Shown: positions 41,109-62,298 of the stretch, in pieces
How positions within the stretch are numbered: the stretch's first letter is position 1
Layout of the letters: each line of letters opens with the position of its first letter
IMG/VR virus record: IMGVR_UViG_3300033049_000013
Span: 23,217-87,216 of that record
Strand: one strand, 5' to 3'
Source: a virus
Length of the DNA: 64,000 nt
Position numbers and translations under genes: made by a program
Notes under the pieces: model-generated
Told to the model about the DNA's origin: nothing
What the model saw: only the letters and a program-made list of their open reading frames with translations
Database searches by the model: none

Positions 41109-42767
41109 TTAATTATTATATATTGCTTTTTCTATAGATAGTATACTCTTAGCTACTGATACTGCATTAGTGATAGAGTCTATTAACACTCCTGTTGGAT
41201 CGTATACAGTGTAATCATCTAATGAATAAAATTCATTATTGATAACATTATATCCTTTATGTTTATTAGTGATTACTTGTCTAATACCTTCTTCTTGAAT
41301 ATCAGAGTTTAAGCAAAGTTGTTTAAATGGTTCTAATAATGATTCATATAATAATGATTCACCAAAATTTAATTCTTCGTCTCTAACTTCATTATGGGCA
41401 TGTATAAGGGCATAACCTCCACCAATACTAATTCCTCTATCAATAGATGCTTTAACTGCTTCTACCGCATCGTCTATCCTATCTTTTCTCTCTTTCATTT
41501 CTACATCGGTAGGTGCTCCTACGTGAATAACAGCAACTCCTCCTGCAAGTGTAGCCAAACGTCTTTTGTAGTATAGACGTTCATTATCACTTAATTCATC
41601 TTTCTCTAATCTACTTTTAGTTATTTCAATTAACTCAGTTACTATTTTAGTATCTGCACTACCTCCTAGTATAGAGGTGTAATCTTCTTCTACAAGTACT
41701 TCTTCTGCAAATCCTATAGCTCCAATATCTTCACTAGTTCCAGGTACAGCGCCAGTTAATGCTGCAATGTCATTCATAATTTCAATCTTCCTATCACCAA
41801 ATCCATCATGTTCTGTAAACATAATGTTAAATCCATTTGGATTCATTAGTTTAGTGTTGATTAACGATTGTAGTACAAAAGGTTCTACTTCATTAACTAC
41901 GAATAAAATAGGATGATTATTAATAATCTTACCTTGTTCATCGGCATTTACTGCTTTAATGTAAGGATCTAAATCCTTTTGACTTCTTACAGTATCATTG
42001 AATAATACAATGTAAACTTTATTAACTTTCCATTGCATTCTAGTAATATCAGAAAGAAATTGTGGTGCATAAAATCCTCTAGTATATTTAATACCTTTTA
42101 CTTTAGTAATTCTATCTACTGAGTTATGAGAATGCTTAACTTCTATATGTCCATAGATACCAATCTCTTGTACTATGTCATAAATAAATCTACCAATCTC
42201 TTCATCATTAGCAGAGATAGTAGCTACATGTAATAACTTCTCAAAGTTAGATTCAATAGGTAATGACTTACTTTCTATATACTTTATGATTTTTACCTTA
42301 GCTTCATCTAACTGTCTGGCTAAGTCATAAAAACTCACACCTTCACTCATTAGCTTAAAGCCTGCATTAATCAAGTACTGTGCTAAGATAGCTGTTGTAG
42401 TAGTACCATCACCACTTGACTTAACTGTCTTCTCCGATGCTTCTCTTACTATTTCAATTGCCATACGCATAATATGGTCATCAGAAGAGACTTGTTTAGC
42501 TACGGTAACACCATCCTTAGTAATTCTAGGACGTTGTGTCATAGGGTCATTAAATAGCACATTCTTACCTTTAGCACCTAATGTTACCTTTACTGTGTCT
42601 GCTAGTATATTTACACCCTCTAAAATTCTTTCTTTAATTGTCTTTTCTGTATATGTAGTCATACTAATATCCTCTTGATTTCCTTGTAACTCTTTAATTC
42701 TATCCTCTTTTCTTTTATCCATAGTCAAATAAAATGGATGTGGCGGTAAGTCTATTTCTTTACTCAT
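41109..42767 (-). CDS. groEL: Phage-encoded GroEL-type chaperonin (60 kDa class)
   Basis: 552 aa, near bacterial GroEL length. Diagnostic segments appear in order: VTLGAKGKNV (61-70; the usual Pro is Ala65), ITKDGVTVAKQV (82-93), GDGTTTT (119-125; Asp120 matches the ATPase Asp87 of E. coli), GFGDRKIEIMNDIAALTG (322-339), AGGVAVIHVG (408-417), MKERKDRIDDAVEA (424-437; Asp433 matches Asp398) and a C-terminal YDPTGVLIDSITNAVSVA. So ATP binding and hydrolysis residues are kept. The first about 36 residues are an extension; the ATG at 42660-42662 is an alternative start that fits the family better. There is no GGM tail. It overlaps the small basic gene by 8 bp. It lies between portal and scaffold/capsid genes, so folding of a virion protein is the likely job. 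Confidence 0.93.
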   Translation of the reverse strand: MSKEIDLPPHPFYLTMDKRKEDRIKELQGNQEDISMTTYTEKTIKERILEGVNILADTVKVTLGAKGKNVLFNDPMTQRPRITKDGVTVAKQVSSDDHIMRMAIEIVREASEKTVKSSGDGTTTTAILAQYLINAGFKLMSEGVSFYDLARQLDEAKVKIIKYIESKSLPIESNFEKLLHVATISANDEEIGRFIYDIVQEIGIYGHIEVKHSHNSVDRITKVKGIKYTRGFYAPQFLSDITRMQWKVNKVYIVLFNDTVRSQKDLDPYIKAVNADEQGKIINNHPILFVVNEVEPFVLQSLINTKLMNPNGFNIMFTEHDGFGDRKIEIMNDIAALTGAVPGTSEDIGAIGFAEEVLVEEDYTSILGGSADTKIVTELIEITKSRLEKDELSDNERLYYKRRLATLAGGVAVIHVGAPTDVEMKERKDRIDDAVEAVKASIDRGISIGGGYALIHAHNEVRDEELNFGESLLYESLLEPFKQLCLNSDIQEEGIRQVITNKHKGYNVINNEFYSLDDYTVYDPTGVLIDSITNAVSVAKSILSIEKAIYNN

Positions 42768-60857: not shown

Positions 60858-61310
60858 ATGAAATTCACAGTAACAGTAATAATGACTAAAACTACGAATC
60901 AAAATTTCACTCATACCACCGAAGGATATGAATTGGTTCAAGAGATTAGAAAGGATTTAGAACTACCTAATCTGGCAACAGACAGAATTAGCGAGTCTGT
61001 GACAAATCTAAGACATAATGATAATAGAATTATGCCAGGCTTCATAGAAGAAGTACCAACGGAACAAAGAACAGTTCAAGTCACAGATAATGACCTTAAT
61101 AAAATAGGTGACTTATTTGGCTCACTATGCCAGATCACCGTCAAAGTTGACGGATGTATATTAAAAGGAGAATTACAAGTAGAAAAAGGAGACAATGGCG
61201 AAGTGACCAATGTCTTTAATCGTTACACTATCAATGAAGGACTATTAATACAGTTGTTACAAGAACAATGTAGTCCTACAGAAGATGGGTTATATGAAAT
61301 AACACACTAA
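60858..61310 (+). CDS. Small unknown protein (150 aa)
   Basis: Begins with a beta strand (KFTVTVIMTKT), then mixed polar sequence with a possible DLFGSLCQITVKVDG segment. No family recognised. CACCACT lies 20 bases before the ATG. A 12-bp hairpin and a hammerhead ribozyme follow the gene. Confidence 0.6.
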   Translation: MKFTVTVIMTKTTNQNFTHTTEGYELVQEIRKDLELPNLATDRISESVTNLRHNDNRIMPGFIEEVPTEQRTVQVTDNDLNKIGDLFGSLCQITVKVDGCILKGELQVEKGDNGEVTNVFNRYTINEGLLIQLLQEQCSPTEDGLYEITH

Positions 61311-61338: not shown

Positions 61339-61367
61339 TACCAGCCTGTTAATACAACAGGTTGGTA
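61339..61367 (+). terminator. Hairpin just upstream of the hammerhead ribozyme
   Basis: TACCAGCCTGTT pairs with AACAGGTTGGTA (12 bp, one G-U, 5-base loop). No T-run follows, so it is a poor terminator. Its last two bases are the first two bases of ribozyme stem III, so it could protect the 3' end of the released upstream RNA or tune folding of the ribozyme. Confidence 0.55.
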
Positions 61368-61428
61368 CTGTCGTTACTCCGATAAGAGTAGCCTGATGAG
61401 TAAAGGTTTTAACACCTACGAAACAGTA
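61366..61428 (+). ncRNA. Hammerhead ribozyme, type III
   Basis: All core positions are present. Stem III: TACTGT (61366-61371) pairs with ACAGTA (61423-61428), 6 bp including U16.1-A15.1. The cleavage triplet is GUC, with cutting expected between 61372 and 61373. Stem I: GTTACTC (61373-61379) pairs with GAGTAGC (61386-61392), closed by loop CGATAA. Core CTGATGA is at 61393-61399. Stem II: GTA/TAC then, past an AA bulge, GGT/ACC (61400-61419) with loop TTTAAC. GAAA is at 61420-61423. Open stem III makes it type III. It would cut the mRNA between the 150-aa gene and the helix-turn-helix gene, leaving an 85-base leader with a 5' hydroxyl on the latter. Confidence 0.88.
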
Positions 61429-61457
61429 GTCAATCACCACATTAAATCCAATAAACC

Positions 61458-61748
61458 ATGAAACGAATTAAAGACAAAATAGCTGAATTAAACAAAGTCG
61501 TACCTATCACTGATAAGGACAGACTAAACAAAGCAGCTAGACGTATTCATTTCAACATAATGCTAATAGTAGAAGCTGAATTAGATAGACAAAATCTCCG
61601 TAAAATAGAATTAGCGGAGATAATGGAAATACCTAGAAGCAATCTAGCAGCATTATACTCAGGTAAAGTACTTCTAACGCTAAAGACTATCGTAAAGATA
61701 GAAATAGCATTAGATATGAAGATTGAATATTCACCACAAACAAATTAA
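61458..61748 (+). CDS. XRE-type helix-turn-helix regulator (96 aa)
   Basis: Residues about 35-90 follow the HTH_3/XRE layout: helix, LRKIELAEIMEIPRSNLAALYSGK (helix-turn-recognition helix), then LTLKTIVKIEIALDMKIEY. The first 30 residues are a basic helix. Similar small proteins act as phage repressors or as antitoxins; no toxin partner is evident next to it. Its leader contains the hammerhead ribozyme and a CACCACA element 16 bases before the ATG. Confidence 0.75.
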   Translation: MKRIKDKIAELNKVVPITDKDRLNKAARRIHFNIMLIVEAELDRQNLRKIELAEIMEIPRSNLAALYSGKVLLTLKTIVKIEIALDMKIEYSPQTN

Positions 61749-62199: not shown

Positions 62200-62207
62200 C
62201 AATCACT

Positions 62208-62250
62208 ACATTAATAACCTATTATCTGTTAGGTAATAGGTTATTAATGT
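62208..62250 (+). terminator. Perfect 17-bp hairpin after the 145-aa gene
   Basis: ACATTAATAACCTATTA pairs with TAATAGGTTATTAATGT around a 9-base loop. No T-run follows, so it may protect or mark an mRNA end rather than stop transcription. Confidence 0.55.
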
Positions 62251-62298
62251 AACACTTTCAATTAAATTGTAATCACCACAAAATAAATAAAAACAATA

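Follow-up and report, generated by a model that had tools for sequence, protein, structure and literature searches.

A type III hammerhead ribozyme abutted by a hairpin at a small-gene junction of a Bacteroidota-type virus, a candidate gene separator in a polycistronic phage transcript

Hammerhead ribozymes in clusters flank genes of several prophages (Perreault et al. 2011, PMC3088659). Three tandem prophage sets cleave in vitro, and the set from A. tumefaciens also cleaves in E. coli (PMC3088659). Processing of phage transcripts into single-gene messages was proposed in the same 2011 study (PMC3088659), which also places the 5' end of the major transcript of haloviruses HF1/HF2 no more than 3 nt from the cut. 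Its main text does not use the words "terminator", "stem-loop" or "exonuclease", and both of its uses of "hairpin" are unrelated to the question treated here. A 2017 review remarks on the phage link and names the role of prokaryotic hammerheads as an open question (PMC6155905). Below, we describe a hammerhead from a viral metagenome record that, together with a hairpin directly upstream, may act as a cis-acting gene separator in a polycistronic phage transcript and leave the upstream message hairpin-capped, a reading to which we assign a probability of roughly two in three.

The window, as the analysed stretch of 64,000 nucleotides is called here, comprises bases 23217-87216 of an 87,216-base virus record that is possibly incomplete. 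Its terminase has ~29% identity to terminases from crAss-like phages (Crassvirales) and further matches in Bacteroides, Flavobacterium and Cellulophaga phages, and its major head protein shares 21% identity with Flavobacterium phages of the FpV1-4 group. Judged by sequence, the phage is a Bacteroidota-type virus. Structural genes occupy the minus strand, and the plus strand from 58.5 kb to the window end carries a run of small genes. A phage-encoded GroEL (phrog_5725) lies at 41109-42767 (-) and is also found in the hammerhead-bearing contigs L176, L177, L165 and L174. The part of the record that precedes the window encodes a 4688-aa protein (L170:3713-17779, +) with a DprA-like stretch at approximately residues 3912-4051. 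The features of the ribozyme junction are as follows.

60858..61310, plus strand: upstream small gene, 150 aa, no family match (ORF list, family search)
61339..61367, plus strand: 12-bp hairpin, arms 61339-61350 and 61356-61367, 5-nt loop
61366..61428, plus strand: complete type III hammerhead ribozyme (sequence reading, covariance models)
61366-61371 with 61423-61428, plus strand: stem III, 6 bp, UACUGU/ACAGUA, open
61370-61372, plus strand: GUC cleavage triplet (NUH), before stem I
61372..61373, plus strand: predicted cleavage site GUC^G, C17 being 61372 (C17 position in the Rfam and phage-model alignments)
61373..61392, plus strand: stem I, 7 bp (61373-61379 with 61386-61392), one U-G pair, loop CGAUAA
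61393..61399, plus strand: catalytic core CUGAUGA (C3UGANGA9)
61400..61419, plus strand: stem II, GUAAAGGUUUUAACACCUAC, 3+3 bp (61400-61402 with 61417-61419; 61405-61407 with 61414-61416), AA bulge at 61403-61404
61420..61423, plus strand: core GAAA (G12AAA15.1)
61429..61457, plus strand: 29-nt leader from ribozyme end to start codon (median 25 nt in other type III hammerheads)
61458..61748, plus strand: downstream gene, 96 aa, Cro/C1-type helix-turn-helix (HTH), marginal match (PF01381)

Every element of the complete type III hammerhead proposed in the first-pass annotation is read in the window: the core, the GUC triplet, and stems of 7, 3+3 (with the AA bulge) and 6 bp. The three helices surround the core, with stem III open and stems I and II closed. 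The window copy has a stem I loop and a stem II bulge and loop, candidate partners of a loop-loop tertiary contact, and its stem II module is conserved across viral contigs. Cleavage is predicted to leave a 2',3'-cyclic phosphate on C61372 and a 5'-hydroxyl on G61373. The ribozyme is intergenic and in sense orientation, between the upstream stop codon at 61310 and the downstream ATG at 61458. The upstream 12-bp hairpin is likewise real and shares two bases with stem III (U61366 and A61367), as the annotation had stated; its further suggestion that the two folds may compete found no support. Joint folds cost almost nothing, at -28.0 kcal/mol for a 12-bp hairpin with a 4-bp stem III and -28.2 kcal/mol for a 10-bp hairpin with a 6-bp stem III, and in relatives the hairpin is placed directly against stem III. 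By these calculated energies, hairpin and ribozyme are not mutually exclusive. In a 147-nt context, the best single-sequence minimum-energy fold differs from the active fold; in a shorter context, the active fold lies within ~2 kcal/mol of the best, in energies that leave out tertiary contacts.

A local scan of 401 nt with the Rfam model RF00008 gives a full-length match (model positions 1-54) at 30.3 bits and an E-value of 1.2e-4. The match is significant, and its score stays below the gathering score of 48.5, which is a curator's cut-off and not a structural feature; a scan of the whole window at the gathering threshold yields no Rfam match. A phage covariance model built from 22 further viral type III hammerheads, with the window left out, gives the site 34.9 bits (E 1.1e-7) and matches nowhere else in the 87 kb record. 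Within the 22-sequence alignment, 95.7% of cells pair and both sides have changed in 110 cells, values that shuffles never reach and that are partly circular, because the descriptor itself demanded stems. That descriptor requires core, triplet and stems (at least 7/3/5 in its strict form), and from 60 Mb of order-2 Markov sequence, counted on both strands, the expected number of chance type III motifs per 64 kb is 0.028 for the loose form and 0.001 for the strict one.

The Rfam cut-off accepts 3 of ~13 canonical phage type III hammerheads in ten loci scanned and no type I hammerhead of the L144 and L054 arrays, and the Hammerhead_1 model RF00163 finds no match even in loci with clear type I copies. 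Across the loci tried (L005-L011, L144, L054, L064, L072, L075 and others), most canonical phage hammerheads, and type I copies above all, fall below the two cut-offs. The number of hammerheads in viral genomes is therefore probably underestimated, as far as these loci allow a judgement, and the score of the window hammerhead below a cut-off that fails most phage type III copies is not telling.

The stem II module GUAAAGGUUUUAACACCUAC, or a variant differing in one to two bases, occurs in 14 other viral contigs, always in type I hammerheads, and the window holds the only type III copy with it. The module occurs unchanged in the two circular permutations, in type I (L005, L010, L157-L168) and in type III (61400-61419 of the window). 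Three of the contigs that carry it come from genomes with a phage GroEL (L176, L177, L165), as does the window, and one has a primase/helicase resembling those of Flavobacterium phages. The shared module bears on whether the ribozyme is a decayed or inactive hammerhead, surviving by chance or carried as a passenger of mobile DNA. Such an origin would suit a single copy in the 87 kb record and a score below the Rfam cut-off, but all core bases are present, all stems are intact, most other phage type III copies and every type I array tried escape the same cut-off too, and hammerheads of other viral contigs contain the stem II module unchanged. We consider decay highly improbable.

Hammerheads in viral loci were surveyed by DNA-pattern scans followed by acceptance with the descriptor, giving 240 distinct copies (170 type I and 70 type III) in 177 loci. 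In each locus, one hammerhead owes its selection to the search pattern and the remaining ones are unselected; 124 of the 177 loci hold one copy and 53 hold two or more, and none has hammerheads on both strands. The first set comprised 194 hammerheads, with 0.0 expected in Markov sequence. Pattern matches in L004, L008 and L169 (Pseudomonas) failed the descriptor and were rejected, and the phage type III model found no match in five crAss-like phages, Flavobacterium phage FpV4 and a Manatee Spring phage.

The surveyed hammerheads mostly sit between genes. ORFs were called mechanically, and position figures are hence approximate. Among type I copies 120 of 150, and among type III copies 49 of 68, are followed within 60 nt by the ATG of an ORF of 40 aa or more, compared with 30% of random positions, and 7% of hammerheads are fully contained in an ORF of 60 aa or more, compared with 61% of random positions. 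The median distance from ribozyme to ATG is 26 nt for type I and 25 nt for type III. Genes 3' of the ribozymes are small (median 84 aa) and mostly belong to no family; the others encode HTH, ArdC-type anti-restriction, DUF932, methyltransferase, superinfection immunity or phage RNA polymerase proteins. The largest arrays hold nine copies in 4.3 kb (L174), eight (L175) and seven (L173 and L179), and six contigs (L174, L175, L173, L179, L162 and L144) have 5 to 9 sense-strand hammerheads between consecutive small genes. The arrays appear to lie in early, host-takeover regions. The window hammerhead is a single copy in its 87 kb record; several per genome are common and not obligatory.

The gene downstream of the window ribozyme is indeed a small HTH gene, but the description of its leader as that of a phage regulator stands less firmly, as the HTH assignment is marginal (PF01381, 23.5 bits against a cut-off of 23). 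Nothing in the sequences compared indicates a tie between the ribozyme and regulators, and its relatives precede many kinds of small gene. Searches of IMG/VR found no relatives of the HTH protein, the upstream 150-aa protein or a 389-aa gene, the HTH protein had no match among phage isolates, and IMG/VR yielded no relative of the flanking genes with which to compare the junction. Relatives of the terminase (TerL, 50-77%) are partial contigs in which the hammerhead core is absent; one of these records (L018) has a core-like string that fails the descriptor. No site of the Bacteroidota promoter motif lies near the ribozyme on its strand, and sigma-70-like sites around it are not above chance. 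A near-perfect 21-bp inverted repeat at 62207-62251, which follows immediately on the stop codon of the gene 3' of the HTH gene, is perhaps another 3'-end hairpin and has no adjoining ribozyme.

The two permutations differ in the sequence immediately upstream. A hairpin of at least 6 bp touches stem III in 36 of 57 type III hammerheads (de-duplicated, window included), whereas one of at least 6 bp precedes stem I in 14 of 129 de-duplicated type I copies, and 6.6% of shuffled sequences have such a hairpin (p 6e-13). With the window left out, 35 of 56 type III copies carry the upstream hairpin, compared with 3 of 56 in a downstream mirror control. Much stricter de-duplication lessens the contrast, to 12 of 25 type III versus 5 of 34 type I copies (p 0.008) and to 9 of 17 versus 3 of 17 (p 0.07). 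Type I hammerheads directly follow the upstream stop codon (median distance about 0), and hairpin-bearing type III copies begin a median of 31 nt past it, the gap being filled by the hairpin. About one third of type III copies have no hairpin, and these show a weak, non-significant trend towards lacking a co-directional upstream gene (p 0.11).

This difference may have a structural reason. Type I hammerheads need no added hairpin because their closed stem III already forms one at the new 3' end; in type III, stem III is open, and a capped upstream end therefore requires a separate hairpin. On a simple reading, every cut would leave the upstream message ending in a hairpin, supplied by stem III in type I and by the added hairpin in type III. 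We found no paper describing this rule among the open-access literature searched, in which it seems to be undescribed; the ribozyme and its general processing role are of a known kind.

An abutting hairpin could also be part of the ribozyme, stacking coaxially on a short open stem III and assisting co-transcriptional folding, so that protection of the 3' end is incidental. The abutment is tight enough for this, with hairpin and stem III spaced by 0 or -1 nt in 26 of 36 cases and by -2 to +1 nt in 32 of 36; stem III is short, at 4-6 bp in nearly all type III copies; and the joint folds are compatible in energy. A stacking aid is harder to reconcile with the length of stem III, which averages 4.6 bp with a hairpin and 4.9 bp without (p 0.64), and with hammerheads that have a 4-bp stem III yet no hairpin (L009, L040, L140 and L145). 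We regard this explanation as rather doubtful. Still less credible is a hairpin that serves as a transcription terminator or attenuator, with the ribozyme a relic or back-up: although a strong hairpin does stand right behind the gene, that of the window has no T-run and is not listed as terminator-like, and in relatives stem III, not a T-run, comes next after the hairpin. With the T-run absent, the terminator reading was rejected, and its probability is very slight.

The spacing to the next gene raises a different question, namely whether the ribozyme acts mainly on the HTH message, through a 5'-hydroxyl leader, translation, stability or perhaps a switch of regulator dose, with the upstream end irrelevant. 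The narrow distance to the next start codon (median 25-26 nt) is consistent with such an action, as are the cases in which a hammerhead heads an operon or early transcript, namely haloviruses HF1/HF2 and the Flavobacterium phage elemoF 6-3D (L258), isolated on Flavobacterium sp. BAL314, which has the following feature.

NC_055853.1:17866-17920, minus strand: type III hammerhead of elemoF 6-3D, unannotated (phage type III model, 50.5 bits)

The elemoF hammerhead ends ~15 nt before gp59, beside a divergent gene boundary, and has no strong hairpin. This arrangement fits an action on the downstream message better than a gene separator, and elemoF is a useful contrast case to hairpin-bearing type III hammerheads. 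For phage hammerheads at large, an effect on the leader leaves the type III hairpin rule unexplained, and the downstream 5' ends are opposite in kind, a bare strand after type I cleavage and a folded ribozyme after type III. The feature common to both types is therefore the hairpin at the upstream 3' end. A ribozyme devoted to the HTH leader is accordingly an unlikely explanation of the window locus.

We therefore return to a gene separator, a proposal that builds on the structure, sense orientation, junction position and recurrent layout observed at these loci. Transcription of the plus-strand operon (~58.5-64 kb) would run through the junction, and the ribozyme, by homology, would cut after C61372. 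The upstream message would then carry at its 3' end the 12-bp hairpin, followed by a brief unpaired stretch (5 nt with all 12 pairs formed) and a terminal 2',3'-cyclic phosphate, and an end capped in this manner would be a poor substrate for 3'-5' exonucleases and may thus be protected. The HTH message would begin with a 5'-hydroxyl and have stem I folded at its extreme 5' end, followed by the 29-nt leader, and it would lack the 5'-phosphate that is sensed by host decay enzymes. The two messages could then be turned over independently, their stabilities decoupled. Splitting of the polycistronic RNA and protection of the new 3' end by the hairpin had both been put forward in the first-pass annotation; the comparative survey of 240 viral hammerheads agrees with both.

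A broader and more tentative proposal, to which we give somewhat less than even odds, is that hairpin and type III hammerhead form one composite, self-cutting 3'-end former across many phages, generating the same upstream end as type I, hairpin-capped and with a cyclic phosphate. If true, phage hammerheads would chiefly make stable single-gene messages. The hairpin rule, a separate hairpin in type III and none in type I, predicts the purpose of the cut and bears on the role of hammerheads in phages and bacteria named as open in PMC6155905.

Among known systems, type III members of RF00008 such as that of sTRSV satellite RNA have in common with the window copy the core, the GUC triplet, the open stem III and the closed stems I and II. 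The window copy differs from them in lying at a gene junction of a DNA phage with a hairpin abutting stem III, and its stem II bulge and loop differ from the RF00008 consensus. The HDV-like theta ribozymes of gut phages (Kienbeck et al. 2024, PMC10879173) are also self-cleaving ribozymes in phage RNA but are of another class and are linked to suppressor tRNAs. The hammerheads of the prophage clusters and the haloviral HHphage in PMC3088659 stand beside small phage genes or ahead of an early gene; the window differs from these in being a Bacteroidota-type virus with a single type III copy and an adjoining hairpin. The viral type I arrays (L162, L173, L174, L175 and L179) occupy sense-strand junctions ~25 nt before start codons, as in the window, and two of them (L162 and L179) carry its stem II module. 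These arrays represent circular permutation I, in which the upstream product ends in a closed stem III and there is no extra hairpin.
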